Assembly: GCA_022565665.1 (NCBI GenBank)
Contig: JAIUMI010000011.1
Coordinates: 28,810 to 92,809 of the forward strand
From: Glycocaulis sp.
GTDB lineage: Bacteria > Pseudomonadota > Alphaproteobacteria > Caulobacterales > Maricaulaceae
Direction: 5' to 3'
DNA: 64,000 nucleotides
In this document: positions 7,174-27,066 of the stretch, in pieces
Layout: each line of letters opens with the position of its first letter
Numbering within the stretch: the stretch's first letter is position 1
Position numbers and translations under genes: made by a program
Notes under the pieces: generated by a model
Seen by the model: only the letters and a program-made list of their open reading frames with translations
What the model was told of the DNA's origin: nothing
Database searches by the model: none

Positions 7174-7189
7174 TAAGGATATATCCTTG
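7174..7189. promoter_or_regulatory. regulon palindrome, site 1 (citE promoter)
   Basis: The sequence TAAGGATATATCCTTG contains the perfect 14-base palindrome AAGGATATATCCTT at 7175-7188. It matches the core of five other intergenic sites in the first 27 kb (consensus AAATGATATATCATTT). On the minus strand TTGTCC (7206-7201), a 17-base spacer and TATATC (7183-7178) form a promoter whose -10 lies inside the palindrome, 9 bases before the citE ATG. A second palindrome, TGTCCGGACA at 7196-7205, covers the -35, and ATGTCCG is repeated at 7195 and 7210. Confidence 0.6.
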
Positions 7190-7260
7190 CCGAAATGTCC
7201 GGACAAATTATGTCCGCGCCCCGCAAAGGTCAAGGAAGGGATGTGCGGAGGGGCTAACCC

Positions 7261-7833
7261 TCAATCCCACTCCAGCGGCGGGGAGATGAGATGGTTCAGC
7301 TCCACGATATGCCCGTCAGGATCGCGCAGCATCGACACCATCACCTGAAACGTCACCCCGTCGCCCGGATACTCGCGATAGGCAGGCTCGCTCATGACGG
7401 TGACGCCGGGTACCGCGGCGGCGGCGGGAAACACCGTGTCGAGCTCGGGCGTATTGAACAGCAGGACAATCTCGCCGGTGCGAAAGCCCGTTTCCGGCAC
7501 GTCCGGCGGCGGCGCATCGCCCGCATTCTCCAGTTCCCACAGGCCCAGCATGCCGATCCGGTCATCATTGGCTTTCAGCAGGACAAGGCGCGACTGGCTG
7601 GTGCCATCGCGGCTGGTGATGATCTGGTCGTAGCTGACCTCCATCCCCATCGCATCGCGATAGAGCGCCAGTGACGCCTCCAGATCGCGCACCAATAGCG
7701 TGGTACGGCGCAGATCGAGCGGATTGCGCGTCGAGGCTGCTTCCTGCGCATCAGCGCTGGCAGACGGCGCGGCGTTGCAGGCGCCCAGCGCCAGTGCGGC
7801 CAGCCCTGCGGTGATGAGCGATAGCGTCTTCAT
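7261..7833 (-). CDS. VOC/glyoxalase-fold lipoprotein
   Basis: A 190-residue protein with a lipoprotein signal (hydrophobic residues 3-18, lipobox ALGAC with Cys19) followed by one vicinal-oxygen-chelate domain at about residues 43-185, ending in RDPDGHIVELNHL, a typical VOC C-terminal strand with a metal-ligand Glu. VOC proteins include lyases, dioxygenases and binding proteins; a lipid-anchored form outside the cytoplasm is less usual. The gene follows the CpcT/CpeT-like gene in the same orientation. Function beyond the fold is unknown. Confidence 0.75.
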   Translation of the reverse strand: MKTLSLITAGLAALALGACNAAPSASADAQEAASTRNPLDLRRTTLLVRDLEASLALYRDAMGMEVSYDQIITSRDGTSQSRLVLLKANDDRIGMLGLWELENAGDAPPPDVPETGFRTGEIVLLFNTPELDTVFPAAAAVPGVTVMSEPAYREYPGDGVTFQVMVSMLRDPDGHIVELNHLISPPLEWD

Positions 7834-7856
7834 GGCGGTCTCCCCTGCCCCTGTTT

Positions 7857-8489
7857 CTAGTTCACCCGGTCAAACACATAGCCGCCGCGCGCCGGGCCCC
7901 AGATGAGGGTGCCTTCGGCGTCAAAGCCCCGGTCCCAGTTGGCATGGCCTTGCGGGGTGTGGATGGAGCGCGAGACCGTGCGCACCGCGCCGCGCAGGCC
8001 CGACGGGCAGGTGTCGAAGTTCGATTGCCAGTAGCCGTGGGCGATGCGGTGCACCTCGCCCGAACAGCTCACGGCGCCCAGCTGGTCTTCGGCGATACGT
8101 TCCGGCTCGGCATAGGCACCCACAACGCTCGCCGGATCGTTGAGGGTGTAGATCGTGCGCAGCACCAGCCGGTTATTCAGCTCCCAGATGCGGATGATGC
8201 GCTGGAAGTACGGGCGCTGCTTGATGGCAGGGTCGAAGTCCTCGGGGCTGGAGCCCAGAAAGGCGTTTTCCTGATAGAGCCAGATGCCGTCCTCGCGGTG
8301 CGGCCAGATGCGCACCGTCTCGCTCTCCACATAGCCCCAACCCTCGATGCGGGACTGTTCCAGCGTCGAGAACGAGCCGATCAGCAGGCCCGCCAGCTCG
8401 TTGGCACCGGGAAACCCCGGCTCATCCTCCTGCGCAAGCGCCATCGGCGCGGCAAGGCACAAGGCAAGGGCGGCAATGAGCATACGCAT
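7857..8489 (-). CDS. CpcT/CpeT-like secreted protein
   Basis: A 210-residue protein with a signal peptide (about residues 1-19, ending MALAQ) and a body resembling the CpcT/CpeT (DUF1001) fold: the N-terminal LAGLLIGSFSTLEQSR, then RPYFQRIIRIWELNNRLVLRTIYTL. In cyanobacteria this fold attaches bilins to phycobiliproteins. This organism shows no phycobiliprotein genes, and the protein is exported, so a different ligand or role is likely. A longer protein of the same kind lies at 22342-23391. It is the third gene downstream of the SDR in the same run. Confidence 0.65.
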   Translation of the reverse strand: MRMLIAALALCLAAPMALAQEDEPGFPGANELAGLLIGSFSTLEQSRIEGWGYVESETVRIWPHREDGIWLYQENAFLGSSPEDFDPAIKQRPYFQRIIRIWELNNRLVLRTIYTLNDPASVVGAYAEPERIAEDQLGAVSCSGEVHRIAHGYWQSNFDTCPSGLRGAVRTVSRSIHTPQGHANWDRGFDAEGTLIWGPARGGYVFDRVN

Positions 8490-8510
8490 GGACTATCTCC
8501 CCGTTGGTTT

Positions 8511-9404
8511 TCAGATTTTGGGCGCGGGCACGGCGGCGGCAAAGGCCTCGGCGATCTGCTCGCGCGTAGCGAGCCACACGCCGGATTTTTCCGACACGTA
8601 TTGCAGGAAATCGCGAAACGCCCCGATCCGCCCCGGACGCCCGATGATACGCAAGTGCAGGCCAAGGCTCATCATGCGCGCGCCATCGGCCTGCGCCTCG
8701 GCGTGCAGCCAGTCGAACGTATCAATGGCGTATTGCAGCCAGTCGCGCGTGGTGAGCGAGGGCGCGAGCCAGAACTTCATGTCATTGGTATCAAGCGCGT
8801 AGGGAAGGACGATGATCGGCTTTTGCCCGCCACCCGGCAGATCGACGACATCCCAGTAGGGAAAATCGTCTGAATAATCGTCCATGTGATAGGTGTAGCC
8901 AGCCTCGGCCAGAAGCCCGCGCGTAATGTCGGTATGCAGATAGCGCGACAGCCAGCCCGCCGGGCGGCGCCCGCAGGTCTGCGCAATGCTGTCCGTGCCC
9001 TTCTTGATGAACTCGCGCTCGCGCTCTTCGTCCATGAAGGCCTGAAACTTCCAGCGCCAGCCATGGCAGCACGGCTCATCGCCCCGCGCCGTGATGGCCT
9101 TGGCTACCCAGGGCGCGCGCTCCAGCGCCTGCGAGCACGCCGTCCAGGTGGCGGGGACGTTGTACTCATCGAGCAGCTTTAGCACCCGGCCCGCACCGCG
9201 ATTGATGCCGTACTGATAGTTCGTCTCATTGCCGTGAATGCGGATCGGGGCTTTCAGCGATACGCCCAGCTCATCAACCGGCTCCGGGCCCTTGTCCCCG
9301 TCACGGATATTGGCCTCCGCCCCCTCCTCGACATTGACGACGATGGAGAGCGCGAGTTTCGCGCCATTTGGCCAGCTGAAACCGGGCGGGGGATTATGGG
9401 TCAT
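8511..9404 (-). CDS. polysaccharide deacetylase-family hydrolase (PuuE-like)
   Basis: A 297-residue NodB-fold protein without an evident signal peptide. The motifs VNVEEGAE near the N-terminus and CCHGWRWKFQ in the middle resemble PuuE-type, metal-light members that act on cyclic amides such as allantoin rather than on polysaccharides, so a C-N hydrolase role is plausible. I chose the ATG at 9404; an in-frame TTG at 9425 would add seven residues but starts at the foot of a long inverted repeat. It is separated from the SDR gene upstream by that repeat. Confidence 0.75.
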   Translation of the reverse strand: MTHNPPPGFSWPNGAKLALSIVVNVEEGAEANIRDGDKGPEPVDELGVSLKAPIRIHGNETNYQYGINRGAGRVLKLLDEYNVPATWTACSQALERAPWVAKAITARGDEPCCHGWRWKFQAFMDEEREREFIKKGTDSIAQTCGRRPAGWLSRYLHTDITRGLLAEAGYTYHMDDYSDDFPYWDVVDLPGGGQKPIIVLPYALDTNDMKFWLAPSLTTRDWLQYAIDTFDWLHAEAQADGARMMSLGLHLRIIGRPGRIGAFRDFLQYVSEKSGVWLATREQIAEAFAAAVPAPKI

Positions 9405-9428
9405 GGTGGCAATGGTCCAGTTCAACTT

Positions 9429-9520: not shown

Positions 9521-10357
9521 TTAATGCGGCTCCTCACCGCCGGAGACATTCATGCTTTCAGCCGTGATGTATTCGGCCTCGTCGGAGCACAGGAAGGCAA
9601 CCGCCTTGGCGGTGTCCTCCGGCTTGCCGGGGCGTTTTAGCGGAATACGCTCGGCCATGGCCTTGAGGTAGTCATCGACGCTGGCCGCGCCGACCACTTT
9701 CGAGAAATACTCGTTCTGCCACGCGCCCAGCCCCGTGGTGACATGGTTCGGGCAGACATTGTTGACGGTGATGGCGTGCGGGCCCAGCTCAATCGCCGCG
9801 GAGCGCACGAGGCCGACGAGGCCGTGCTTGGAGCTGGTATAGGCCTGCGCATGGGGGAAGCCGGATTTCGCCGCCTGGCTCGCGATATTGACGATGCGCC
9901 CGCCCTTGCCGGCCTTCACCATCACTTCAGCGGCGGCCTTGATGCCGAAGAAGCAGCCCGTCAGGTTCACATCGATCACCGCGCGCCAGTCATCGGCCGT
10001 CACATCCAGCAGCGGCTTCATGATGTAGCCGATACCGGCATTATTCACCCAGATATCGAGCGAGCCGTGCGTATCGACCGCGTGTCTGGCCAGCGCGCGC
10101 ATCTGTTCCAGATCGCGCACATCACACACCTTCGTTGACGCCGCAACGCCGGTTTTTCGGATATCGGCGGCAATCGCCTCCATCTCGTCGGTCGCGCCAA
10201 TATGTTCGGCAGGGGTGGCGAGGTCTGCTGCCTTGCCGATATCGGAGATGACGATATTGGCGCCCTCCGCAGCGAGGCGCAGGGCGATGGCTTCGCCTAA
10301 GCCCTTCCGCCGTCCCGAACCGGTGATGACCGCCGTCTTGCCGCTGAAACGTCCCAT
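9521..10357 (-). CDS. short-chain dehydrogenase/reductase
   Basis: A 278-residue classical SDR, oxidising an alcohol or reducing a ketone with NAD(P). The cofactor loop is near residues 11-21 (TGSGRRKGLG), followed by NNAG (105-108) and the catalytic Ser160, Tyr173 and Lys177 (AYTSSKHG). The acidic residue after the second strand (SDIG, 38-41) suggests NAD preference. It begins 9 bases downstream of the HapK-like gene and is probably in one transcript with it. Substrate unknown. Confidence 0.88.
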   Translation of the reverse strand: MGRFSGKTAVITGSGRRKGLGEAIALRLAAEGANIVISDIGKAADLATPAEHIGATDEMEAIAADIRKTGVAASTKVCDVRDLEQMRALARHAVDTHGSLDIWVNNAGIGYIMKPLLDVTADDWRAVIDVNLTGCFFGIKAAAEVMVKAGKGGRIVNIASQAAKSGFPHAQAYTSSKHGLVGLVRSAAIELGPHAITVNNVCPNHVTTGLGAWQNEYFSKVVGAASVDDYLKAMAERIPLKRPGKPEDTAKAVAFLCSDEAEYITAESMNVSGGEEPH

Positions 10358-10366: not shown

Positions 10367-10681
10367 CTAGCCGAGCTTGTCGGTGAGGATGAAGGCCAGA
10401 TCATCGGTCATGGCCTGAAACTCCGCCGCAATGGCCTGCATGGTGGAGGTGGAGACGTCCGCGCCAAACTGGGTCATGTCGTTCACATCAATGATCTCGA
10501 CATAGGCGTAAGGCGGCTTTGCGTCAGAGCCCAGCAGGCCCACCGACTTGAAGACGGCAAAGTCGTCCACCGATTTCAGGCCGTTGACCGTGGGAATGTC
10601 CTTGGCCTTCGCCCAGGCTTCATAATCAGCCTCGCTGATGCCGGGCTTCAGATTGAACAGGGCAATGATGCGCGTCGTCAT
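10367..10681 (-). CDS. REDY-like/HapK-family small protein
   Basis: A 104-residue protein beginning MTTRIIALFNLKPG and continuing with DYEAWAKAKDIPTV, a pattern I recall from HapK (REDY-like), a dimeric alpha-beta barrel protein of uncertain function found near prodigiosin-type and other biosynthetic or catabolic genes. EthD-like monooxygenase-type barrels are the alternative. The frame stays open upstream as antisense to the methyltransferase, but the ATG at 10681 is where the conserved N-terminus starts. The palindrome at 10755-10770 lies 74 bases upstream and is shared with the divergent methyltransferase. Confidence 0.6.
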   Translation of the reverse strand: MTTRIIALFNLKPGISEADYEAWAKAKDIPTVNGLKSVDDFAVFKSVGLLGSDAKPPYAYVEIIDVNDMTQFGADVSTSTMQAIAAEFQAMTDDLAFILTDKLG

Positions 10682-10754: not shown

Positions 10755-10770
10755 AAATGATATATCATTA
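10755..10770. promoter_or_regulatory. regulon palindrome, site 2 (hapK-like / methyltransferase)
   Basis: AAATGATATATCATTA includes the perfect 14-base palindrome AATGATATATCATT (10756-10769). It sits between two divergent genes whose starts are at 10681 and 10868. Of the six sites it is the closest to the consensus AAATGATATATCATTT, differing only in the last base. Operators of this size and symmetry are used by GntR-, TetR- and IclR-type dimers; the regulator is not in the surrounding 27 kb. Confidence 0.65.
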
Positions 10771-10867
10771 GATCGGAGCGCGCTTGCCAAGCCCTGATCG
10801 GCGCGTCAGATGAGAAAAGTGTGGGCAGTGATGCCCGATATCGGCTCGCAATGCCGGGGAGAATGTG

Positions 10868-12091
10868 ATGGCCAAGGACAGCGCAGACCCGAAATCTTCC
10901 GTGCCGGCCTATGACGGCCCGCCCGACTATCGCCTTGTCGGCCAGCACGATGTCTTCCCGCAGGTCACCCATGACGAGGCCGAACGGTTCAACTATCTCG
11001 CCCACATGAACCGGCATCTGGCCGCGCGCGTCCTGCCGGGCGTCAAGGCCGCCTTCGAGCAACGCATCGCGCCCAAAGCCGGGGACGGCTTCAAATCGCG
11101 CCACGATGTCAGGAAGGCGCTCCTGAAAGACCCTGCCTTCCAGACCTGGAGCGCGCTGCGCCGGGCCACCATGGAACAGCGCCAGCAGGCGGGGCGCTGG
11201 GTGACGCTGCGTCAGGGCGAAGCCCTGACCGCCAGAGCCCGCGAACTGACCGAGGGCGATGGCCGGCTGCAGCTGGAGCCGAGCTTCACCGTGCCGAACT
11301 ATCTCACCGCCGTGGATCATCACTGCATGCCCGGCAGCTATCATGGCGAGATCGTTGAGGGTGACGTCACCGGCCCGGCCAATTACGATTGCGGCATCTT
11401 CGCCACCACGGGCGGAGCGCTCGGTCGCTACAATGATGGCGGCGGTCATGCGGTGGTCGCGTGGCTGAAAAAGCACCTGCCGGACTTCCAGCCCAAGCGC
11501 ATTCTCGATCTCGGCTGCGGGCTGGGCCACAACGTGCTGCCCATCGCGCAGGCCTTCCCGGACGCCGAAGTGATTGCGGTGGATTCCGGCGCGCCCATGC
11601 TGCGCTATGGCCTGGCGCGCGCCAAATCGCTCGGCATCAACAATGTGACATTCATTCAGGCCAATGCCGAGGATCTGTCCCGGTTTGCCGATGAGAGCTT
11701 TGACTGGGTGCAGACCACCATGTTCCTGCACGAGACCAGCCGCTCGGCCATGGGCCGCATCTTCGCCGAGAGCCGCCGCGTGCTGAAGCCCGGCGGCATC
11801 GTGCTCCATGTCGAGCAGCCGCAATATGCCGAGGATATGCCGCTTTTCGAACAGGCCATCCGCGACTGGGACGCGTTCTACAATAACGAGCCCTTCTGGA
11901 CGACCATGCACGAGATCGATCTTGATGATCTGATGATCAAGGCAGGCTTCAAGCCGGGCAGCGCCATCCATGGCGGCGTCGCGGCGGTGGTCGATACCAC
12001 GCTGTTCCCCTCTGCCGGTGACGACAAGGTGGAAGACTATGGCCGCAAGGCCGCGTGGGAGCTGATCGGTGCGAAGAAGGAGGCCGCGTGA
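10868..12091 (+). CDS. class I SAM-dependent methyltransferase with N-terminal extension
   Basis: A 407-residue protein whose C-terminal half is a Rossmann methyltransferase: motif I ILDLGCGLGHN at 212-222, then VIAVDSGAPML and a LKPGG turn. About 190 residues precede this domain and resemble nothing I recognise, containing LTAVDHHCMPGSY; they may bind substrate. The ATG at 10868 has GGGGAGA six bases upstream. The stop overlaps the next gene by one base. The palindrome at 10755-10770 lies about 100 bases upstream. Acceptor substrate is unknown. Confidence 0.82.
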   Translation: MAKDSADPKSSVPAYDGPPDYRLVGQHDVFPQVTHDEAERFNYLAHMNRHLAARVLPGVKAAFEQRIAPKAGDGFKSRHDVRKALLKDPAFQTWSALRRATMEQRQQAGRWVTLRQGEALTARARELTEGDGRLQLEPSFTVPNYLTAVDHHCMPGSYHGEIVEGDVTGPANYDCGIFATTGGALGRYNDGGGHAVVAWLKKHLPDFQPKRILDLGCGLGHNVLPIAQAFPDAEVIAVDSGAPMLRYGLARAKSLGINNVTFIQANAEDLSRFADESFDWVQTTMFLHETSRSAMGRIFAESRRVLKPGGIVLHVEQPQYAEDMPLFEQAIRDWDAFYNNEPFWTTMHEIDLDDLMIKAGFKPGSAIHGGVAAVVDTTLFPSAGDDKVEDYGRKAAWELIGAKKEAA

Positions 12092-12450
12092 TGGCCGGTT
12101 TTGATCCGCTTTCCCAGGCAGGCAACAAGGCCAAGGGCAAGCGCCCCTGGTTCTTCGAGGACCGTGAAGCCGAGCGCGTGATGAACATCGTCATGGCGCT
12201 GGCGCAGGAAGTTTCCGTCATGCGCATGCGCCTCGACACGGTCGAGCGCCTGCTGGAGGAGAAAGGCGCCCTCACCCGCGCCGATATCGAAGCGTTTGCG
12301 CCTGACAAGGCGGAGGCCGCCGAGCGCGGCGCGTGGAACCAGGAATTCATCGCCCGTATCCTGCGCATCGTGCAGCAGGAGAACGAAGCCATCGAGGCCG
12401 GCGCAGAAATGAGCTCTGAGGACGCCGGCAAGGAGCTGGGGCTGAGCTAG
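12091..12450 (+). CDS. small helical protein coupled to the methyltransferase
   Basis: A 119-residue protein of unknown function. Its ATG overlaps the last base of the methyltransferase stop codon (TGATG), which suggests the two are made together and may form a complex. Residues 25-65 (EREAERVMNIVMAL..., VSVMRMRLDTVERLLEEK) look like a coiled-coil or long helix. There is no signal peptide or membrane segment. An in-frame upstream ATG at 12055 lies within the methyltransferase and is rejected. Confidence 0.7.
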   Translation: MAGFDPLSQAGNKAKGKRPWFFEDREAERVMNIVMALAQEVSVMRMRLDTVERLLEEKGALTRADIEAFAPDKAEAAERGAWNQEFIARILRIVQQENEAIEAGAEMSSEDAGKELGLS

Positions 12451-13105: not shown

Positions 13106-13846
13106 TCACTCCCCCAGCACGAACAGGCTCTCCTCCATGGGGGCGTTGAGGGTGTAGGACGTCCAGATGGTCTCATTGGCCTTTACGCCATTATAGAACA
13201 GGCGCACCCGGCCGGGCTGGACCCATGAATCGCCCGGATTGGAGTAGAAGTCCGAATAGATGCGCTCATGCCAGCCGCGCGCGGTCTGGAAGCCGACGCG
13301 CAGGATGGCGTGATCATCGTGCGCAATCGCAAACAGCGCCTGCCCGCCCACCGCATCGGTGACGCGGATCACATAGACCTCGCGCCCATCGACATAATCA
13401 TCCGGCAAACGGTGCAGGCTGTATTCGGGATCAAGCGCATAGCGGATCGCGCCGAAGCCGAAATTATTGGCCCATTCGGCGCTTGCCTCCGCCCCCGGCA
13501 CGAGGCCGTTCTGGTTGTAGGTGTTCACCCCGTCAAAGGCGAGCTGGAACACGATCTCTCCGTCCCTGAACGCGTCGATGCGCACACGCCCATCGGCGAT
13601 ATGGGCATCATCCTTGCCTTCAGGATACACGCGCCACATCCGGTAGGGTTCATAGATGACCGGCTCATGCCCGCCACCGGAGAAGAACACGCCATGGCCC
13701 TCCATCAGCAGGGTCTGCGGGGATACCCATTCCGCCCCGCCAGCGGCCTCGTGAGCGCGCGCCACGATGTCGCGGGGGCCGAGCCCCTCATCAGCGGCAG
13801 ACGGCGCTGTAAGGGCCACACAGACGGCAATAGCGGCAAAACGCAT
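13106..13846 (-). CDS. secreted protein of unknown function
   Basis: A 246-residue protein with a signal peptide (MRFAAIAVCVALTAPSAA, about 18 residues). The mature start ARAHEAAGGAEWVSPQTLLMEGHG resembles proteins with a LolA-like half-barrel, and the rest is beta-rich with many Tyr and Trp. I do not recognise a specific family. The ATG at 13846 has GAGGAAG upstream. It diverges from the VOC gene across a regulon palindrome at 13905-13920, so it is probably part of the same pathway, perhaps as a periplasmic carrier or sensor. Confidence 0.65.
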   Translation of the reverse strand: MRFAAIAVCVALTAPSAADEGLGPRDIVARAHEAAGGAEWVSPQTLLMEGHGVFFSGGGHEPVIYEPYRMWRVYPEGKDDAHIADGRVRIDAFRDGEIVFQLAFDGVNTYNQNGLVPGAEASAEWANNFGFGAIRYALDPEYSLHRLPDDYVDGREVYVIRVTDAVGGQALFAIAHDDHAILRVGFQTARGWHERIYSDFYSNPGDSWVQPGRVRLFYNGVKANETIWTSYTLNAPMEESLFVLGE

Positions 13847-13920: not shown

Positions 13921-13981
13921 TACATAGTGCACCGTGAAAGTGCTGTCTGACAATCACCTCAGGAACCGGGGGACAGGGGCC

Positions 13982-14863
13982 ATGAAATGCCTGCGCGCCG
14001 CGACACTGACCGTCGCCAATCTCGATGCCAGCGAAGCGCTTTACCGCGACGTTCTGGACTATCGCACCATCGCCAGCGGGCCTTTGCCGGCGGACCTGGC
14101 GGCCAGCTGGGGCGCACCAAAGTCTGCAGGCGCGCGCCATGTGGTGATGCAGCCCTCATCCGGAGCAGAGATTTATCTGCGCCTGGTCGAGCAGGTCCCG
14201 CACCCCGATTTCGTGCCGCTGCGCAGCTATGGCTGGGCAGCCATCGAAATCTGCGTGCAGGATGTGCTGGCCGCCAATGAGCGGGTGAAGGGCACGCCGT
14301 TTGAGGTGATCGGCCCGCCGCGCGAGATCGAGGGTCTGCCGGCCATCTATCCCATGCAGGTGAAGGGCCCCGATGGCGAGATCGTCTATCTGACCCAGAT
14401 CCGCGATGATCTCCCGGCCTATGATCTGCCGCGCGCGCAGAGCCCCATCGACAAGCTCTTCATCCTCGTGATTGCCTGCAGCGACATGCACGCCTCGCTG
14501 GACTGGTTTGAGAAGAATATTGGCTTCCCGACCGGGCGCGTGATGGATATCGAGTATCACATGCTCGCGAACGCCTTCGGCACGCCGACAAACGAGCTGC
14601 ACACCATCTCCACCGCCATCCACGGGCGCGACGTGTTCCTGGAGCTGGACCAGTATCCGGAGAACGCCACCGTGCGCCCGAGGCATCCCGGCATGCTGGC
14701 GCCGGGCTGCGCCGTCGGCAGCTTCATCCACCCGGACTTTGACAGCGTGACCGGTGAATGGGTGAGCAAACCCGTCATCCGCTCCGGCGCGCCCTATACC
14801 GGCAAGCGGGCAGGCACGCTCAAAGCCCCTGACGGTACGCTGGTCGAGATCATCGAGCTTTAG
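13982..14863 (+). CDS. two-domain VOC (glyoxalase/extradiol dioxygenase-like) protein
   Basis: A 293-residue cytoplasmic protein with two VOC domains, at about residues 1-125 (starting LRAATLTVANLDASEALYRDVL) and 145-290 (starting KLFILVIACSDMHASLDWFE). The second ends in APDGTLVEIIEL, carrying the usual C-terminal ligand Glu. The arrangement fits ring-cleaving dioxygenases or glyoxalase-type lyases. I chose the ATG at 13982, which has a GGGGGACAGG site, over a GTG at 13934. It leads a three-gene unit with the reductase and hydrolase, 8 bases and then an overlap apart. Confidence 0.75.
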   Translation: MKCLRAATLTVANLDASEALYRDVLDYRTIASGPLPADLAASWGAPKSAGARHVVMQPSSGAEIYLRLVEQVPHPDFVPLRSYGWAAIEICVQDVLAANERVKGTPFEVIGPPREIEGLPAIYPMQVKGPDGEIVYLTQIRDDLPAYDLPRAQSPIDKLFILVIACSDMHASLDWFEKNIGFPTGRVMDIEYHMLANAFGTPTNELHTISTAIHGRDVFLELDQYPENATVRPRHPGMLAPGCAVGSFIHPDFDSVTGEWVSKPVIRSGAPYTGKRAGTLKAPDGTLVEIIEL

Positions 14864-14871
14864 GCCGCGCC

Positions 14872-19144: not shown

Positions 19145-19692
19145 CAGCGCGCCTCCCCGTTTTGCGGGGCAGCAACGTCCGCTGTCTCATCCACCGGCGG
19201 TCCATCACCGCCCACGCGTTCGACCGGTTTGAGGGCCGGATTGGCGAAATAGATCAGGAAGCGCACTGCATTGCTGGCGAAGGCGAGCAGCAGGATGAGC
19301 TGCAAGGCCCAGACCGGCGCGCGCAGGATCGGCGTGCGGTCGCCCAGCGCGAAGGATTCCGCCACGATCCACACCGCAAATCCCGTCAGGACGAGGAAGA
19401 AGATTCCGGTCAGAAGGCTGGCGAAGCGTTCCACCCCGCCGCGCAAGGGCTTGGGGACCAGCGCATCAAACACGGTCGGGCGCAGATGCGCGCCGTGATC
19501 GGTGGCAACACCGATACCGAACATGGCCAGCGCAATCATGCCGAACACGGCAATCTCCACCGCGCCGATCAGCCCGGTCTGGAACAGGCGCCGCGAGATC
19601 ACATCAGCCAGCAGGGCGAGCGTCATGATGGCGAAGGCGAACACCGCCGCCCAGCGCTCTGCACCGGCGATGAATTTCAGGATCGCGTTCAT
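19144..19692 (-). CDS. TRAP transporter small permease (DctQ-like)
   Basis: A 182-residue protein with four membrane segments (about residues 12-35, 45-65, 88-112, 130-150), the DctQ topology. AEIAV-type residues in GLIGAVEIAVFGMIALA match the family. It is coupled to both neighbours: 4-base overlap with the binding-protein gene and 1-base overlap with dctM. The C-terminal 30 residues are an acidic, proline-rich cytoplasmic tail. Confidence 0.88.
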   Translation of the reverse strand: MNAILKFIAGAERWAAVFAFAIMTLALLADVISRRLFQTGLIGAVEIAVFGMIALAMFGIGVATDHGAHLRPTVFDALVPKPLRGGVERFASLLTGIFFLVLTGFAVWIVAESFALGDRTPILRAPVWALQLILLLAFASNAVRFLIYFANPALKPVERVGGDGPPVDETADVAAPQNGEAR

Positions 19693-20777
19693 GCCGCACC
19701 GCCAGAGCGCTCGGCAGCAAAGGCCGCCTTGCCCGCAAGGATGGCCTCATAGACCTCGCGTGAACGCCCGCCGACATCATCAATCAGCTGGTCGATGACA
19801 TTCTCCGTCGCACGCCGCCAGGCCGCCAGCTGGGCCGCATCTAGGTCGTGGACATGAATTTCCTCACCGCGCGAGGTGCGCAGTTCGCGCACTACACTGC
19901 CATCGGGCCCGCGCTGCACGCCGGAACGCATAGCGCCTTCAAGAATCCCGGTCATCTGCCGCACGCCCGCGCGCGCATCGGCGGACGAGCCCCAGGCGGT
20001 GTCGATGGTTTCACGCTGGGAGGCGGTCGCGCGCCCATACCAGTCCCGGTTCAGCACGATGGCGCCGGTATCAAAGGAGTGGCGCGTCAGGGTGAAGTCG
20101 GTCGACAGCTCCAGCGTGGAAAAGAAGTGGAAGGGCAGGCTGGAAAGCCCGCCTTCGACGAGGCCTGTCTGCAGCGCGGGGATCACGTCGGAAATCCCCA
20201 GCGCTATGGCGTCCATCCCGGCAGCCTCGCAGAAAAAGCGCGCGGCAGCATTCGGCGAGGTGCGGATTTTCAGGCCCGCAGCATCGTCCGGCGTCAGGAG
20301 CGGGCGGTTGGCGAAGATGTGCGTCCAGCCCACCTCCACCCATTGCAGGATGAGCAGGTTCTGCGCCAGCGCCAGCTCATTGATGATGTCATAGAGATGG
20401 TTGTCATAGACATAGTCCACCTCCTCGTAACTATCGAAAAGATAGGGCGATATGGCGATGGAGAGCTCGGGGATGCTCGACGCCAGCCCTTGCAGGCTCA
20501 TGCCTCCGATATGAGCCCGGCCGCGCCGGAGATCGTGGAGCATGCGCTCCTCATTGCCGAGCTCGGCCTTGGTGAAATAGTCGATATTGAGCGTCGGATT
20601 CTCGGCCATGCGGGCCTCGAAGGCGAGCCATTGCGCATCCCACGGCGTACGGGGCGGGGCCTGCGCCACGGCGCGGCCATAGAGCGTTCCAGGCGGATCA
20701 TTGCGCCGCCCGCACCCGGCAAGAGTGCCCGCGCCCGCCAGCCCGGCAAGGGCCAGGAATTCCCGGCGTTTCAACAT
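19689..20777 (-). CDS. TRAP substrate-binding protein (DctP-like), Tat lipoprotein
   Basis: A 362-residue periplasmic solute-binding protein. The N-terminus MLKRREFLALAGLAG carries a twin-arginine motif, followed by LAGC with Cys22 as a lipobox, so it is predicted to be Tat-exported and lipid-anchored. The conserved arginine region is LLTPDDAAGLKIRTSPN; a TRAP protein normally uses such an Arg to clamp a carboxylate. The frame is open farther upstream but the ATG at 20777 gives the signal sequence. It diverges from the amine oxidase over a regulon palindrome. Confidence 0.88.
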   Translation of the reverse strand: MLKRREFLALAGLAGAGTLAGCGRRNDPPGTLYGRAVAQAPPRTPWDAQWLAFEARMAENPTLNIDYFTKAELGNEERMLHDLRRGRAHIGGMSLQGLASSIPELSIAISPYLFDSYEEVDYVYDNHLYDIINELALAQNLLILQWVEVGWTHIFANRPLLTPDDAAGLKIRTSPNAAARFFCEAAGMDAIALGISDVIPALQTGLVEGGLSSLPFHFFSTLELSTDFTLTRHSFDTGAIVLNRDWYGRATASQRETIDTAWGSSADARAGVRQMTGILEGAMRSGVQRGPDGSVVRELRTSRGEEIHVHDLDAAQLAAWRRATENVIDQLIDDVGGRSREVYEAILAGKAAFAAERSGGAA

Positions 20778-20910: not shown

Positions 20911-22338
20911 ATGAGATTATCACGCCGCACAATGCTGGCCGGAAGCGCCGCTCTGACTGGCAGTTTCGCCATTGGCGGCTGTGGCCCTCGCGGAGATCGT
21001 GCGGCGAGGGACGCCGATGTCATCGTGCTGGGCGCAGGCCTGTCGGGGCTTCATGCAGCACGCATCCTTTCTGCTGCCGGCATGGACGTGCTGGTGCTGG
21101 AGGCATCAAGCCGGATTGGCGGGCGCATGGTGACGCTGGATCATCTGCCCGGAGCCCCCGAAGCCGGCGGCGAGCAGGTCGGGCGCGGCTATGCGCGCGC
21201 TCACGCAGAGGCCGCCGCGCTGGGCCTGGAGTTCGAGGATTTCGCGCCCTCGCGCTTTGGCGAACAGCTGGTGGTGGACGGGCAAAGAATTGCTGCCAGC
21301 GAATGGCCGGCATCGCAGCTAAACCAGCTGCCTGAAGCCATGCGGGGTTTAAGCCCGCATCAGCTCTTCTTCGGGCTGGTCGCACGCCATAACCCGCTGC
21401 CCGATGTCTACGCCTGGCGCGAGGAGGCCTGGCAGAGCCATGACATCGCTGCAGAGGACTTCGTGCGGTCGCTGGGTGCCAATGACGCGGCGGTCAGTCT
21501 GATGGATGCGACGCTCAATGCCGGGCGGCTTTCCACCTACTCGATGATGAATGTGTGGCGCTCGCTGACGCTGTACAATTCCGAGCGCGAGCTGGGCCCG
21601 TCACAGCGCGTCCGCGGCGGCTCGCAGCGCCTGCCTGAAGCCATGGCGGCGAGCCTTCCAAGGCCTGTACGCACCGATGCGCGGGTGGTGGCAATCGAAA
21701 CCGACGATACCGGGGCAGCGGTGCGTCTGGAGAGCGGTGAGACGCTGCGGGCAGACTTCCTCGTCAGCGCCCTGCCCTTCCCGGTGCTTCGTGCGCTGGA
21801 TGTCTCGGCGCCCGTCTCGGCGGCACAGGCCGAAGCCATTGACGGCCTGCCCTACACGCCGATCGTGCAGCTTCACCTGGAGGCCGAGACACCCTTCTGG
21901 GAAGAGGATGGCCTTGCGCCCGAAATGTGGACCAACTCTCCGCTGAACCGGATTTTCGCACGCCGTGATGCGGACGGGCCGACGGGCATGTTCACCTGCT
22001 GGATCGATGGCATGGACGCCCTCGCGGCTGACGGTCGAAGCGAGGCCGAACTGCAGGCGCTGGTGTCAGAGATATTCGCCGCCGCCCGCCCGGCCAGCGA
22101 AGGGCGCTTGCGCTTGCGTGAGGTGATCCGCTGGACACCGTCCAATGCGCACGCAGGCGGGGCCTACATGCACTGGGCGCCGGGGCAGATCAGCCACTGG
22201 GCCGAACCGATGATCCGGCCTGCCGGGCGGCTCTTCATCGCAGGCGAGCACGCCAGCCATTTGCACACCGGCATGGAAGGCGCGATGGAGGCCGGCGAAC
22301 GCGCTGGTGTCGACATTCTGGATATGGCAGGGGCTTGA
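20911..22338 (+). CDS. FAD-dependent amine oxidase family protein, Tat lipoprotein
   Basis: A 475-residue flavoprotein of the monoamine oxidase/polyamine oxidase fold. The start MRLSRRTMLAGSAAL has a twin-arginine motif, and IGGC supplies a lipobox Cys24, so a folded FAD protein would be exported and lipid-anchored. The dinucleotide loop is VLGAGLSG (39-46) followed by LEASSRIGGRM; the C-terminal FAD motif is FIAGEHASHLHTGMEGAMEAG. The ATG at 20911 has GGTGGAGG upstream. Family members oxidise amines, amino acids, thioethers or C-C bonds, so the reaction is not fixed. Confidence 0.85.
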   Translation: MRLSRRTMLAGSAALTGSFAIGGCGPRGDRAARDADVIVLGAGLSGLHAARILSAAGMDVLVLEASSRIGGRMVTLDHLPGAPEAGGEQVGRGYARAHAEAAALGLEFEDFAPSRFGEQLVVDGQRIAASEWPASQLNQLPEAMRGLSPHQLFFGLVARHNPLPDVYAWREEAWQSHDIAAEDFVRSLGANDAAVSLMDATLNAGRLSTYSMMNVWRSLTLYNSERELGPSQRVRGGSQRLPEAMAASLPRPVRTDARVVAIETDDTGAAVRLESGETLRADFLVSALPFPVLRALDVSAPVSAAQAEAIDGLPYTPIVQLHLEAETPFWEEDGLAPEMWTNSPLNRIFARRDADGPTGMFTCWIDGMDALAADGRSEAELQALVSEIFAAARPASEGRLRLREVIRWTPSNAHAGGAYMHWAPGQISHWAEPMIRPAGRLFIAGEHASHLHTGMEGAMEAGERAGVDILDMAGA

Positions 22339-22341
22339 GGC

Positions 22342-23391
22342 CTACCGCCCCAAGCTCTCCGGCGTGTGGGTGCAGCTTGCCTGTAGCCAGCGCAGATTGA
22401 TGCCCAGTCGCTCTGCGCCCGCCTCTCCCCAAGCATAGGACAGCGCCCGGTCATCACCCGCCTCATGGACATAGAGGGTCAGCGAGCCCCGGCGGTCCCG
22501 TGCAGGCCATTCCACATCGCGCAGGCGTAGCTCGATCTGGCGTGGCGGGGTCTCGTCGGTGGTGACAATCGCGCTGCCACCCTGATCATGCAGCCAGACA
22601 TCGCGCAGGAACTGCCAGTCGGACGAACCCGCCCCGCTATCGCCGTGCGAGGCCCCGCGCAATACCGCCATCCAGCACTCGAAGGGGCGCACCTTGAGCA
22701 GGCGATGCGGCAGGCCAAGCCGGTTGCCATAGACATACTCGCCCTCAGCCGTTTCGGCCCGGTCGCGGATCCAGATCGCATCCGGCGTCAGGACCAGATC
22801 ATCCTCGATGACAAGCGTGCGCCCCGACTGGCGGCTTTCCACCACACAAACCCCGCGCACGGTCTCGCCGACAAACTGGTTTTCACGGCGACGCCAATAC
22901 ACTTCGCAGCCGGGATAGCTGAGCGTGGCCGCTGGCGTCAGCCCTGCCAGCAGCGATGGATCACGCCACGCACCGCGCAACGCCGCCACGTCACGCGGCG
23001 CATAAATGTCCAGCCGGATGGCGTTGGCCTCGTGATCGGCGGTGAAGGTGTAGATACGCTGGCGATAGATGTTTTCGGGGTCATTGCCCGAATACTGCTC
23101 GACATAGAATACGTGCTCGCCAAAGGCGGGTAGCTCCACACGGGCGAAGATGGAATGGATACGGCCATTGCGGCCCTCTTCAGGAATGCCCGCGGCCTCG
23201 GCGAAGAAGACCTCGCGGTCATTGTCGAACCGGCCTTCAAACCATTCCAGCATCAAGGCGAGGTCGGCCTCCAGCACGGCCTGCGCTGAACGGTTCTCCG
23301 TTACCGGGTGGGTGTGGGGTAGTTGCGCCGGGGCAGGGCTGCTGCCTGCTGCCAACGCTCCCACTATCAGCCATGTCCTAAACCCGTTCAT
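22342..23391 (-). CDS. long CpcT/CpeT-like secreted protein
   Basis: A 349-residue protein with a signal peptide (about residues 1-22). Residues 40-200 look CpcT/CpeT-like: LEWFEGRFDNDREVFF, ELPAFGEHVFYVEQYSGND and IYRQRIYTF match the conserved lyase-fold segments, and GCEVYWRRRENQFVG continues it. About 120 residues are added at the C-terminus compared with the 210-residue relative at 7857-8489. No bilin protein is evident. It is convergent with the amine oxidase, with 3 bases between their stops. Confidence 0.62.
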   Translation of the reverse strand: MNGFRTWLIVGALAAGSSPAPAQLPHTHPVTENRSAQAVLEADLALMLEWFEGRFDNDREVFFAEAAGIPEEGRNGRIHSIFARVELPAFGEHVFYVEQYSGNDPENIYRQRIYTFTADHEANAIRLDIYAPRDVAALRGAWRDPSLLAGLTPAATLSYPGCEVYWRRRENQFVGETVRGVCVVESRQSGRTLVIEDDLVLTPDAIWIRDRAETAEGEYVYGNRLGLPHRLLKVRPFECWMAVLRGASHGDSGAGSSDWQFLRDVWLHDQGGSAIVTTDETPPRQIELRLRDVEWPARDRRGSLTLYVHEAGDDRALSYAWGEAGAERLGINLRWLQASCTHTPESLGR

Positions 23392-23490: not shown

Positions 23491-25959
23491 CTAGAAGCGG
23501 TAACGCGCTTCGATGCCGTAGCTTGCCCCGCGGCGCAGCGTGCCGAAGAAGGCACGCGGAGCGCTTTGGGAAGCACCCGCAGGCGCAATGTTCGGCGAGA
23601 AGCCGGTGCTGATATACGGCGTCTGGAGCCAGCGCGTGGCCATCACGATGGAGTCCTCGTCAAGGATGTTCCGGCCATAGGCAAGAAGGGTCCAGTTGCC
23701 GCTCTCAATACCGAGTTGAGCGCCCAGGATCGAGGCATCCCCCGTCTCGGCAAGATTGTGAACCTGCACGTATTTCGACGATTCATAGGTGTAGTCGCCG
23801 CGCAGGAACCACTCCAGCATGCCTGCCGAGCCCAACGGAGCGCGCAGTTCGGCGTTCAAAGAGAGCTGGTGTTCGGAGGTGAGCGGAATGCGATTGCCCG
23901 CGATGGAGCAATTGCCGGTCTGACCGAAGAAGGATGTACCCGTGCCCGGCGCACTGGATCCCGGCGCCAGAAGGCCGCCACCGGAGGTGAGTTGCCACTG
24001 GTCCTCGTCGCAGCCTTCGGTGAACTCCGGCCGCGTCCAGGCATAGGTCGCGCCAATCGTCAGCATGTCATTGACGCGCTGGCGGTATTCCAGTTCCACG
24101 CCCCAGATTTCAGCAGAGCCCTGGTTGGTGGCCACCGAGTTGACCGCACCGGTCGGCGCCGCCACCGCCGTGGTTAGCTGCACATCAGAGGCATCGATAT
24201 AATATACCGAACCGGCGAAGTAGCCGCTGCCGCCAAACAGGAAGCGCTTCAGACCAATCTCGAAATTGTCCGACGTTTCCTGATCATAGGTCGGGCGGCC
24301 AACGGTCTCACCGATCTGGCCATTTTGACCACCCGGCTTCACACCGCGCGAATAGACCGCAAACAGCGTCGTATCAGCGTCGACATTCCAGTTCACCGTG
24401 AGACGGGGGGTGAAGTTGTTGAACGTATCCGCCCGGCTGAACTGCGTAGTGGCGCTCAGCCCGTCAACCGTCGTTTTTTCCTCTTCCGCGTAACGGCCTT
24501 CCAGCGTCACGGTAAGCGCGTCGGTAAGGTCATACTCCAGCAGTGCAAACACTGCCTGGTTGGTCGTCGTCAACCGGCTGGACGGGTTGCCCTGCGGATT
24601 GGAGAAGGTGATGCTGCGGCCGTTATTGGTCTGGTCGTAATAATACAGGCCCGCCATCCAGCGGAAGCGGTCGGTGACAGGCGAGGCCAGACGGACCTCG
24701 ATCGAGTAGTCCTCGACCAGATTGCGCGTGGTGTTGGCAAAGAAGGCGCCAGTATCAGCCATGCCGACCGGCTGCAGAACGAAGTTCACCGCCGAATGAT
24801 CGGAGTCCGAGCCGAAGCGGCGTTCCTCATCACGATACCCGCCTGATACGGTCAGGACATAGCCCGAACCGCCCAGATCCCAGTTCATGATGGCCGAGAG
24901 CAGAAGTGTGTCGTTCGATACGCCATCGAATGCCGTGCCATCAGCCGTCGAGTAGAGCTGGAACGGCAGGAAGGGGTGCAGCGCGTTAGCCGGAACACCC
25001 GGTATCGGTACCGGCTGGCCTGGTTGGGCCGGGCCGGTGTTAAGCGCCACCGGTGCGGGGCGGATCACGCCGCAGAAATACTGATTGTTGTTGGTGCTGC
25101 CCGAACGCGGCCAGGACGCCAGCGAGCGATGGCCAGGCGAACAGTTGTTCGATGCGGCCGGCTGCAGGAAGAGCGGCAGGGTGCCGTCACGGGACTCCGA
25201 GTACTGGGCGCGCAAACGGATATCGATATTGCTGGACGGATTGAAATCCAGCAGGCCGGAGATTGACGTGGTGGATTGTGAGCCCACCGTCTGGCCGGTC
25301 ACCTGATTGGTCCACTCACCATCATAATTATAATCGCGTACCGACAGGCGGAAACCCGCATTGGGGCCGAGCGGGCCGGAGACGCCGCCGGCAATCTCAT
25401 GCTCGCCATAAGAGCCATACCGGCCGCGCAGGTTGCCCTCAAGCGTGTCGGTGGCGCCGCGCGTGATAAAATTGATCGCGCCGGCATAGGTGTTGCGGCC
25501 ATAGAGCGCGCTCTGCGGGCCGCGGATCACTTCCACGCGGGCCAGATCGTTCGGATCGAGATTCTGGATCGATCCGGGATAGTAGACGCCATCCACAAAG
25601 TAGGCCGTGCCGGACTCCACCCCGAACTGCACGCCAGCCAGCACGTTGGCCTGGCCACGGATCACCGGGCGCTCCGAGGTGCGCCCAAAGGCGGCCGAAA
25701 AGGACAGGCCCGGCGTGAACCGCGCCACATCGTCCACCGTCTGGAGACCAAGGCTGAGAATGTCTTCCTCGCCAAATGCGGTCACGGACACCGGCGCATC
25801 AAGGATGGTTTCCTCGCGGCGGCGCGCGGTCACTGTGATGATGTCACGCGCGCTGCGCTGATCGGCTTCGGTATCAGCCTGACGCGCAACACCCGGCGCG
25901 CTGACAAGCGCGGTCATGGCCAGCGCGGCGGCCGAGCTCAGTAGAATGGTTTTCTTCAC
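23491..25959 (-). CDS. TonB-dependent outer-membrane receptor
   Basis: An 822-residue receptor with a signal peptide (about 25 residues), a plug domain at about 45-160 (APVSVTAFGEEDIL, then GPQSALYGRNTYAGAINF) and a 22-strand barrel ending in the aromatic EARYRF. TonB/ExbBD energise import of a bound ligand through it. It starts at GTG (25959) with GGGGAGAG upstream. The barrel does not reveal the ligand; close siderophore-specific features are not evident, and Sphingomonad-type receptors of this class often serve plant-derived or aromatic compounds. The regulon palindrome lies 55 bases upstream. Confidence 0.92.
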   Translation of the reverse strand: MKKTILLSSAAALAMTALVSAPGVARQADTEADQRSARDIITVTARRREETILDAPVSVTAFGEEDILSLGLQTVDDVARFTPGLSFSAAFGRTSERPVIRGQANVLAGVQFGVESGTAYFVDGVYYPGSIQNLDPNDLARVEVIRGPQSALYGRNTYAGAINFITRGATDTLEGNLRGRYGSYGEHEIAGGVSGPLGPNAGFRLSVRDYNYDGEWTNQVTGQTVGSQSTTSISGLLDFNPSSNIDIRLRAQYSESRDGTLPLFLQPAASNNCSPGHRSLASWPRSGSTNNNQYFCGVIRPAPVALNTGPAQPGQPVPIPGVPANALHPFLPFQLYSTADGTAFDGVSNDTLLLSAIMNWDLGGSGYVLTVSGGYRDEERRFGSDSDHSAVNFVLQPVGMADTGAFFANTTRNLVEDYSIEVRLASPVTDRFRWMAGLYYYDQTNNGRSITFSNPQGNPSSRLTTTNQAVFALLEYDLTDALTVTLEGRYAEEEKTTVDGLSATTQFSRADTFNNFTPRLTVNWNVDADTTLFAVYSRGVKPGGQNGQIGETVGRPTYDQETSDNFEIGLKRFLFGGSGYFAGSVYYIDASDVQLTTAVAAPTGAVNSVATNQGSAEIWGVELEYRQRVNDMLTIGATYAWTRPEFTEGCDEDQWQLTSGGGLLAPGSSAPGTGTSFFGQTGNCSIAGNRIPLTSEHQLSLNAELRAPLGSAGMLEWFLRGDYTYESSKYVQVHNLAETGDASILGAQLGIESGNWTLLAYGRNILDEDSIVMATRWLQTPYISTGFSPNIAPAGASQSAPRAFFGTLRRGASYGIEARYRF

Positions 25960-26013
25960 GGTGTCTCTCCCCTGTTACCCGGCCGACCCGCAGGATTCGG
26001 AACTCGGTCGGTA

Positions 26014-26029
26014 TATTGATATATCATTT
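26014..26029. promoter_or_regulatory. regulon palindrome, site 5 (TonB receptor promoter)
   Basis: TATTGATATATCATTT contains the perfect core TGATATATCA (26017-26026) and differs from the consensus at two outer positions. It is in the 166-base gap upstream of the receptor gene, the only other gene border there being the end of the DUF1838 gene at 26126. Confidence 0.6.
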
Positions 26030-26125
26030 AACATGTGGCGTCAGGCCATTTTCGCCAACCGTCGCGAAGGCGCGGCGAAGTGTTGCAATTCGGTGACAAA
26101 CCCCGCCGCGCCTCGCGTTTTTCCT

Positions 26126-27013
26126 TTAGTTGCTGCGGTCGGGCGCTTCGATCTCGCCACGCGCCACGCCAAGGAAATAGGACCAGCTCGTCACGTTCGG
26201 ACGGGTGTCATCCAGCGGCGGCGCCTGATTGTATTCGGGATAATGGCGTTCGATTTCCGCACGGAAGAATTCAGGAAGGGCGTCATAGCCGCCTTCCAGC
26301 TTGCGCCCTGCCGTGGAGAAATAGATCACGCCTTCGCGGCCCTGCATGCGCATCCAGGGAAGCCAGTCGGACATGCGCACCCAGCCGACCCAGGCTTCTG
26401 CTGTGGTCGTTTCGGGATCGAGCACGTCAGCATCATTGCCGAAGAAATTGAACATCTCGGTCGCATGATAGGTGCCGCCAATCTCGCTCTGGAACTCGCT
26501 GGCCAGCGGGTTTGAGTAGAAGAGCGGGACCGTGTTGGTGAACCACCAGCCGCCATCAGTGGACTGGCCGTTCCAGCGCAGCGGGCCGCGCGGCCCGTTC
26601 ACATAGGCGGTGAAGTTCACCGGATCGTTGGCAACGTGGAGGACGTCCACCGTCTCGCCCGTCCACGGATTGTCCCAGGTGGAGAGGATTTCGTTGGTCT
26701 CCGGATCGAGATAGAGAAGGATTTCGCGCGATACGAGGCGATACCCGTCGCCATACTCAGGATGACTGATGGACGCGCAGGCACGGATATTCATGCCCTC
26801 GACCCGGAACAGGCGCCGGTCCGCCTCGCCTTGACGGCGTGAAAAGGCATAGCCGTTCCAGTAATAGACCACCGGCTCGCCATCGACCGTGGAGCACTGG
26901 ATCTTGCGATTGATCTGCAACACGTCCTCGGGATTGTCGAAGCTCAGCGGCTCTGCGGCCCATGCCGTACTGCTCATTGCAAGGACGCAGCCCGCAATCA
27001 TGATCTGTTTCAT
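26126..27013 (-). CDS. DUF1838 family secreted protein
   Basis: A 295-residue protein with a signal peptide (MKQIMIAGCVLAMSSTAWA). The mature part follows the DUF1838 pattern: NPEDVLQINRKIQCSTVDGEP at the start, then YWNGYAFSR, SWSYFLGVARGE near the end, and many Trp and Tyr. The function of DUF1838 is not established. The open frame extends upstream, but the ATG at 27013 precedes the signal peptide. The regulon palindrome at 27051-27066 is 38 bases upstream, which places it in the same regulon as the TonB receptor. Confidence 0.75.
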   Translation of the reverse strand: MKQIMIAGCVLAMSSTAWAAEPLSFDNPEDVLQINRKIQCSTVDGEPVVYYWNGYAFSRRQGEADRRLFRVEGMNIRACASISHPEYGDGYRLVSREILLYLDPETNEILSTWDNPWTGETVDVLHVANDPVNFTAYVNGPRGPLRWNGQSTDGGWWFTNTVPLFYSNPLASEFQSEIGGTYHATEMFNFFGNDADVLDPETTTAEAWVGWVRMSDWLPWMRMQGREGVIYFSTAGRKLEGGYDALPEFFRAEIERHYPEYNQAPPLDDTRPNVTSWSYFLGVARGEIEAPDRSN

Positions 27014-27050
27014 ATCACTCTCCCCGTTGGGTCCGCTTATCGGACATTTC

Positions 27051-27066
27051 AAATGGTATATCATTT
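27051..27066. promoter_or_regulatory. regulon palindrome, site 6 (DUF1838 promoter)
   Basis: AAATGGTATATCATTT differs from the consensus AAATGATATATCATTT at one base. A plausible minus-strand -35 (TTGCCC, 27086-27081) would put the -10 inside the palindrome, as at citE. Just downstream is a second inverted repeat GTCCG-CTTAT-CGGAC (27031-27045), whose CGGACAT heptamer also occurs in the citE promoter. Confidence 0.62.

Follow-up and report, generated by a model that had tools for sequence, protein, structure and literature searches.

A dispersed palindromic operator in Glycocaulis and the catabolic regulon that it probably controls

Which protein reads a palindrome that recurs in front of six transcription units, and what do the genes behind it do? 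The question is raised by a 64,000-nucleotide stretch of Glycocaulis sp. (contig JAIUMI010000011.1, positions 28,810 to 92,809; hereafter the window), in which a palindromic 16-bp element, written here as AAATGATATATCATTT, occupies six intergenic regions. A first-pass annotation had ascribed it to a dimeric repressor of the GntR, TetR or IclR class encoded outside positions 1-28 kb. Our analysis favours a regulon of scattered operons whose reader is a dimeric protein of the GntR type and whose regulator gene would indeed lie outside this interval, and the sites are probably the operators of one catabolic regulon, controlled by a protein that we call RegA and degrading a compound that yields cyclic imides. 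The sites, their conservation, their co-occurrence with and adjacency to RegA, the promoter geometry and the enzyme families were established by sequence comparison. The regulon itself is well supported; binding, repression, the ligand, the order of reactions and the substrate are what we infer.

Distribution of the palindrome and of RegA

All six copies were found where the first-pass annotation had placed them, with the same base in columns 2, 5, 7-10, 12, 14 and 15 throughout. In a scan of the window, a matrix built from the six gives 23.8-31.4 bits for the sites themselves; the next-ranked place (11.4 bits) is a shifted overlap of the site at 26014, and the top score beyond 28 kb is 9.1 bits, so that the claimed absence of copies from the remaining 37 kb holds. 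The stated consensus with up to three mismatches recovers five of the six sites (shuffle mean 0.04) and misses the one at 7174, which diverges more than the other five. The sites are:

7174..7189, TAAGGATATATCCTTG, before the CitE operon; 22.8-23.8 bits, the weakest of the six
10755..10770, between the HapK-short-chain dehydrogenase (SDR) operon and the methyltransferase gene; 29.9-31.4 bits
13905..13920, between the secreted protein gene and the VOC operon; 27.5-28.6 bits
20833..20848, between dctPQM and the amine oxidase gene; 28 bits
26014..26029, before the TonB receptor gene; 26-28.8 bits
27051..27066, before the DUF1838 gene; 27.4-29.3 bits

The flanking genes agree with their earlier description, HapK being recognised through its orthologue. 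Some sites had seemed to lie inside genes because called starts were too long; they were corrected for the DUF1838 gene of the window and for the glutaryl-CoA dehydrogenase and methyltransferase genes of one relative (G097). For the DUF1838 gene the longest open reading frame overstates the length (orthologues have 284-313 aa), and after moving its start to near 26980 the site at 27051 lies upstream of it.

In the 2.74-Mb genome to which the window belongs (G000; C11 is the window contig, C6, C2 and the like are others), the consensus occurs at 13 places with up to three mismatches, and its reversed control at none. Eleven sites are convincing, namely ten of these 13 and the one at 7174, and they cluster in two places, with eight at C11:23109-55875 (six of them in the window) and three at C6:45642-62598. 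Those outside the window are C11:23109, C11:28626, C6:45642, C6:48468 and C6:62583. Three further matches were set aside: C2:204940 (16.4 bits), C8:109038 (17.0 bits, within a gene) and C19:297, whose 21.7 bits come near the weakest accepted site but which stands at a contig end without a recognisable target. The 14-base pattern AARGRTATRWCMTT with two mismatches proved too loose (55 and 48 places against 19 and 31 in the controls). In this genome-wide scan, a check that the first-pass annotation had proposed, the strong matches precede one coherent gene set. In the window the runs behind a site include CitE-MaoC-acyl-CoA dehydrogenase-CoA transferases and HapK-SDR-imidase-CpeT-VOC. Outside the window, the C11 targets are DUF3598, behind which come FAA hydrolase and GST-like genes, and a PrpD pair accompanied by genes for an AMP-ligase-like enzyme and an amidase. 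On C6 they are a second amine oxidase with a 230-aa membrane protein (mem230), an SSF symporter with DUF1330, the run DUF1838-CpeT-isochorismatase-imidase-imidase-YjbR-nitrilase, and a divergent pair in which aconitase-type large and small subunits with a lyase of the phosphoenolpyruvate (PEP) mutase type face a glutaryl-CoA dehydrogenase. Taken together, the operator would join about 50 genes from several loci, strand and spacing having been used to assign genes to operons.

The search was extended to 137 genomes of the family. Within the genus of the window, site counts are 12, 9, 1, 0, 0 and 0. In G012 (Oceanicaulis sp. HLUCCA04), G081, G084 (Alkalicaulis satelles G-192; both names from identical stretches), G093 and G097, spanning three genera, orthologues of many of these genes have a site upstream, even in G093, where the distances between them reach 1.6 Mb. 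In each of six genomes a site precedes the methyltransferase (offset -72 to -110), mem230 (-48 to -81) and DmdA (-63 to -85) genes, while 11 operon-internal genes have nothing above 5 bits, save one coordinate artefact. In this comparison HapK was not in the gene set, the row of one DUF1838 gene (DUF1838a) is wrong for the other genomes and one entry for the AMP-ligase gene in G097 is artefactual. The TonB receptor orthologue is preceded by a site in all five genomes having one (17-29 bits), and DUF1838 orthologues have an upstream site in G012, G084, G093 and G097. The VOC-operon site recurs in G012 and G081, and the site at 20833 in G012 and, before dctP, in G081; that at 7174 has a counterpart of 21 bits in G012 and none in G081 and G097, these being the three other genomes examined in which CitE was found. 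Sites are conserved where relatives keep the genes, and the 16-mer is retained while its flanks fail to align. The nine matches of G081 represent six distinct sites: three sit at the contig start, with equal sites about 3,396,620 bp away. This contig start (G081:C1:1-20000) duplicates the contig end, with numerous frameshifts; it is probably a circular overlap left unresolved, and it inflates site counts.

Two HutC-type proteins encoded near regulon genes in one genome or another were compared as candidate regulators. The missing regulator is very probably RegA, a GntR/HutC-UTRA protein of 281 aa encoded on C6 (C6:68863-69705), i.e., elsewhere than in the first 28 kb; of the three classes offered, GntR, in its HutC/UTRA branch, fits. 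RegA has an N-terminal GntR winged helix (PF00392, 64.6 bits, cut-off 27) and a C-terminal UTRA domain (PF07702, 107.7 bits, cut-off 23.8), the architecture of the HutC/UTRA repressors DasR, YvoA/NagR and HutC, which use palindromic operators at catabolic promoters; it differs in falling below the cut-off of the HutC equivalog TIGR02018 (107.5 vs 220 bits). Its best matches in the PDB are 2ra5, an unnamed regulator, and then DasR and YvoA, which we take to be repressors released by small ligands. To our knowledge, neither AAATGATATATCATTT nor the spaced 24-bp form described below resembles the operators of these repressors.

Relatives of RegA with 67-92% identity occur in 11 other genomes. In the genera g1, g14 and g15, exactly 12 of the 23 genomes have a close RegA, and these are the ones with at least three sites: they hold 3-12 one-mismatch and 1-7 exact sites, against 0-1 and none in the other 11. 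Such a split would arise by chance about once in 1.35 million if the genomes were independent, which they are not. The gene lies 6.3 kb from the site at C6:62583 and, in G012 and G081, inside the main cluster. More distant relatives (40-53% identity) occur in G009, G010, G105, G112, G115 and G117.

The first-pass annotation had proposed to look for a seventh copy beside a GntR, TetR or IclR gene. A further copy was found in all 12 RegA genomes, in the stretch that separates RegA from the following operon (a 219-aa membrane protein, a flavin adenine dinucleotide (FAD) oxidase and an aldehyde dehydrogenase), as a related sequence of 13.3-19.0 bits; it is not the 16-mer but a spaced form, and a degenerate one (13.3 bits) in G000. 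By eye, all 12 flank sequences are of the spaced type AAATGATATA-NNNN-TATATCATTT, 24 bp long. The two layouts, seen in the 3′ flanks of RegA (loci L087-L098) and at C6:62583-62606, share the half-site AAATGATATA, with halves either overlapping (16 bp) or separated by a 4-bp gap (24 bp), a shift of 8 bp; some sites hold three half-sites. The spaced pattern stands beside RegA and overlaps the site between DmdA and glutaryl-CoA dehydrogenase in all six RegA genomes searched, and occurs at the DmdA promoter in Glycocaulis albus and in several Brevundimonas loci.

Farther afield, an imidase profile retrieved 64 loci. In 24 of them the region preceding the isochorismatase gene was examined, and 11 of these regions contain a match of at least 13 bits. 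Among 18 RegA-like genes at 15 loci, eight have such a match within 350 bp, or nine with that of Microvirga (L142), where the site is just beyond the limit; as background, this score is attained in 474 of 10338 windows of 700 bp. In Microvirga, Allopusillimonas (L151) and Saezia (L155), a RegA homologue and an isochorismatase-imidase operon are transcribed divergently, with a palindrome of 20-27 bits between them; in Pusillimonas (L147) the palindrome is present and no match to RegA was found. In G060, of another genus, an exact site leads a run of DUF3598 and a RegA homologue (33% identity, about 550 bp away); within 60 kb of this genome 36 of 51 query proteins were matched, several weakly, a single site exceeds 22 bits, and DmdB, lyase and TRAP genes were not found. 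Finally, G010 carries a cassette (L171, G010:C1:790000-798000) of a RegA-like gene, isochorismatase, imidases, DmdAB, lyase and glutaryl-CoA dehydrogenase. Each of its two divergent gaps contains the spaced form, and the cassette is possibly a minimal unit of maleimide degradation.

Enzymes under the operator and their putative substrate

The genes of the window, from its start to the last operator site, are:

14..1090, +, acetyl-CoA hydrolase/transferase-like gene (PF13336), separated from the PrpD pair by the site C11:28626
1091..2260, -, CoA transferase family III (PF02515); comes closest to the NCBIfam succinate-glutarate CoA-transferase model, without reaching its cut-off
2881..4453, -, 4HBT thioesterase-like gene and second CoA transferase III
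4600..5796, -, acyl-CoA dehydrogenase
5822..7168, -, MaoC (RipB-like) hydratase and CitE (RipC-like) lyase; RipB and RipC are the top NCBIfam models, and neither cut-off is reached
7261..8489, -, VOC-type gene (PF00903) and CpeT-family gene (PF06206)
8511..9404, -, PuuE/imidase-like gene of the polysaccharide-deacetylase family (PF01522; allantoinase 3cl6 at E 3.5e-61)
9521..10357, -, short-chain dehydrogenase
10367..10681, -, HapK/RedY-like gene leading its operon (found through its orthologue; PF11639 in that of G084)
10865..12450, +, methyltransferase, its N-terminal 200 aa without assignment, and 120-aa partner
13106..13846, -, secreted 246-aa protein, no Pfam match
13934..16955, +, VOC protein, zinc-type dehydrogenase and alpha/beta hydrolase
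17885..20777, -, TRAP transporter genes dctM, dctQ and dctP
20932..22338, +, FAD amine-oxidase-family gene (PF01593)
22342..23277, -, CpeT-family gene (PF06206, E 4.4e-30)
23491..25959, -, TonB-dependent receptor
26126..26980, -, DUF1838 gene (PF08894), start corrected from orthologues

A DNA-binding N-terminus of the 408-aa methyltransferase was considered and rejected, no Pfam match being found there.

Several of the controlled enzymes resemble enzymes of imides and substituted maleates. Two of the putative imidases (imid1, imid2) match PuuE allantoinase structures, and cyclic imidases are placed in the PuuE/polysaccharide-deacetylase fold in passages of PMC9304392. The putative imidases share this fold with the cyclic imide hydrolases of P. 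putida and HxnM and lie below the PuuE equivalog cut-off (TIGR03212, 424.6 bits), imid1 scoring 228.5, imid2 120.2 and imid3 53.9 bits. The isochorismatase-fold enzyme, with candidate D, K and C residues identified by eye, matches N-carbamoylsarcosine amidohydrolase and the structures 3ot4 and 3uao, the latter presumably maleamate amidohydrolase. The small hydratase subunit passes the LeuD/DmdB-family model TIGR02087 (168.1 bits, cut-off 108.95), a subfamily model not specific for dimethylmaleate. The lyase carries KRCGH at 113, which we take to be the active-site motif of the isocitrate lyase-PEP mutase superfamily and of 2,3-dimethylmalate lyase; it matches methylisocitrate lyases best, remains below the PrpB (methylisocitrate lyase) model TIGR02317 (294.2 vs 354.4 bits) and matches the 2,3-dimethylmalate lyase 3fa3 at E 7e-47. 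Dimethylmaleate hydratase (DmdAB) and 2,3-dimethylmalate lyase serve nicotinate fermentation in Eubacterium barkeri. The likeness here, as far as sequence goes, is an aconitase-type pair with a KRCGH lyase matching 3fa3; the differences are that this lyase is closer to methylisocitrate lyases and others and would be fed by imidase and amidase-like enzymes, and no upstream enzyme of the nicotinate route was recognised among the genes scanned. The glutaryl-CoA dehydrogenase is similar over its full length to solved enzymes (3gnc, E 3.7e-173, residues 10-398); with the one NCBIfam model of that name, GlutCoADH_Des, it scores below the cut-off (210 vs 470).

The C11 and C6 loci also contain three CpeT-family genes (PF06206 at 59.9, 105.3 and 74.8 bits, cut-off 21). 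They resemble the CpeT/CpcT chromophore lyases of cyanobacteria (up to E 4.4e-30) and differ from them in being carried by heterotrophs, among degradative genes; they gave no PDB sequence match at E 0.01. Ten of the 12 RegA genomes (not G081 and G090) have such genes, against 7 of the 125 others.

A pathway can be proposed in which TonB, TRAP and SSF proteins would import the substrate, and flavin, VOC, SDR, CpeT- and HapK-like proteins would process it. PuuE-type imidases and the isochorismatase-fold amidase would then open disubstituted maleimides to maleates, which a DmdAB-type hydratase and a dimethylmalate-lyase-type enzyme may split into pyruvate and a short acid. Hematinic acid, passing through imidase, amidase, hydratase and lyase, should on chemical grounds give pyruvate and glutarate, and this would explain a glutaryl-CoA dehydrogenase under the same operator. 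The controlled enzymes, the CpeT- and HapK-like proteins and the uptake systems fit a catabolism of disubstituted maleimides from bilins, chlorophyll or haem. Methyl-, methyl-ethyl- and methyl-vinyl-maleimide and hematinic acid are oxidative products of tetrapyrroles, and the leaf samples contained detectable hematinic acid and no detected maleimides, according to passages of PMC7318184, which also put the yearly production and degradation of chlorophyll on the scale of 10^12 kg.

We consider it an even chance that the full pathway is the aerobic degradation of linear tetrapyrroles (phycobilins, possibly chlorophyll or haem bilins): bilins, once taken up and bound to CpeT- and HapK-like proteins, would be cleaved into methyl-ethyl-, methyl-vinyl- and carboxyethyl-methyl-maleimides. 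Hydrolysis, hydration and cleavage of these would yield pyruvate and a short acid, which for hematinic acid would be glutarate, and the whole would be under one HutC-type repressor sensing a ring fragment. Somewhat doubtful, yet a serious contender, is that the regulon and RegA are right and the substrate is another former of cyclic imides, such as a prodiginine-like pyrrole, an alkylated pyridine, a small alkyl maleimide or an itaconate-like acid. The RipB/RipC-like and PrpD-like enzymes would suit itaconate-like acids; the itaconate Rip route is paralleled by a RipB-/RipC-like hydratase, lyase and CoA transferase, all below cut-offs. HapK belongs to prodiginine clusters, and the G010 cassette has imidases, DmdAB, a 2,3-dimethylmalate lyase-like enzyme and glutaryl-CoA dehydrogenase but no CpeT-family match in its stretch. 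Against another substrate stand the three CpeT-family genes, their concentration in RegA genomes, and the cyanobacterial origin of two carriers: passages of PMC5468372 and PMC13029026 trace HLUCCA04 to consortia of one cyanobacterium with heterotrophs, and A. satelles to a Geitlerinema culture, the latter organism also carrying photosynthesis genes. Its own bacteriochlorophyll is possibly another source of ring fragments. Among the papers listed by searches of open-access PMC text, none was recognised by its title and abstract start as treating a bacterial gene set for the mineralisation of pyrrole-ring fragments. The RegA regulon, as hypothesised, names a regulator and predicts a class of substrate, products and inducer, and a cultured carrier exists in A. 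satelles.

Mode of control and competing explanations

Read in gene orientation, 22 of 65 site-gene pairs (from 43 of the 44 sites of at least 22 bits) have a TTG 18-20 nt upstream of the site, where about 3.2 would be expected from other positions. A -35-like TTG upstream of the site would put the -10 element inside the site, which is the place of a repressor. We therefore picture a RegA dimer that would bind over the -10 region and repress, and that a pathway intermediate (maleimide, maleamate or a related acid), presumably bound by the UTRA domain, would release. That RegA instead activates from these sites is unlikely, given the position of the TTG and the closest named PDB matches of RegA, DasR and YvoA, both of them repressors.

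Slightly less plausible still is that another regulator reads the sites, either the second HutC-type protein (RegB, C2:195858-196577) or an unlinked protein, with RegA as a passenger. RegB, at 56% identity or more, occurs in 20 of the 137 genomes, which include all 12 site-bearing RegA genomes, and it adjoins the promoter region of one PrpD gene (PrpD2) in G084, L121, L123 and L124. The other eight are seven g1/g15 genomes and one further genome without close RegA; RegB was rejected as the main regulator because those seven lack both sites and a close RegA. In addition, the operator-like sequence beside RegB is a different one, TGTCCGGACA, and it is RegA homologues that adjoin the palindrome in distant bacteria.

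The idea that the sites are AT-rich palindromes arisen by chance, or copies of a mobile repeat, to which the 5-13 one-mismatch matches of G014, G018, G019, G020, G049, G111 and G119 outside the three genera (controls 0-4) might lend colour, is effectively refuted by conservation in three genera, by five sites recovered where 0.04 were expected, and by orthologous positions at which the 16-mer aligns and its flanks do not. Also outside these genera, single exact matches without a close RegA occur in G015, G019, G024, G034, G060 and G105.

Several observations weigh against an imide-degrading regulon under RegA. The site flanking RegA in G000 scores 13.3 bits, under two of the rejected matches (16.4 and 17.0); its weight comes from its conservation and its place beside RegA, not from its score. 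Autoregulation at RegA's own promoter was discarded, no site being present in its 5′ flank in the 12 genomes (best 2.9 bits). At the distant loci, 13 of the 24 have no match of at least 13 bits before the isochorismatase gene, and nine of the 18 RegA-like genes have none nearby. The CitE and PrpD2 sites occur only in G000 and G012 and are missing in the other genera examined. A first, broader test for -35 elements was weak (mean 2.92 vs 2.64), and the -20 to -18 window was chosen afterwards. RegA travels with the pathway, so that co-occurrence, in genomes that are not independent, cannot separate a regulator from a passenger. Several enzyme names rest on matches below curated cut-offs, and no tetrapyrrole-cutting enzyme was recognised.

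A second palindrome and other observations

A second palindrome, ATGTCCGGACAA, stands beside the CitE site at 7195..7206. In the form TGTCCGGACA it precedes CitE in G000, G012, G081 and G097 and PrpD2 in G000, G012, G081 and G084, and in g15 it also occurs near a second DUF1838 gene (DUF1838b). Besides the window (7195-7206), copies lie at L001 19772, L056 8924 and 15693, L064 8464, L067 15469, L068 1421 and L074 4181. RegB, a core HutC-type gene, may be its reader. A clean RegB regulon was not upheld: counts against the control are mixed (G000 9/4, G081 15/0, G097 4/4, G009 3/4, G010 1/2), and one copy precedes a bfd-bfr-like pair. At L163 (near 6802-6835; G000:C12:20801), ATATGGTATATTGATATATCAATA is directly followed by TGTCCGGACA at the downstream end of a 1373-aa gene, and no regulon gene was recognised beside this pair. 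A fourth CpeT-family match adjoins RegB (C2:194986-196577, L164), and the RegB/CpeT neighbours are the same in G008, G009 and G010, which have 0-1 sites.

Within the window, a DUF5615/DUF433 pair, of the PIN-like toxin and antitoxin type, lies at 2271-2854 between the thioesterase and CoA-transferase genes, and its homologues are similarly placed in G097 and G084. The cluster also contains a HicB-like antitoxin gene (12460-12861) and an HNH endonuclease gene (16952-17872), with unusual codon use.

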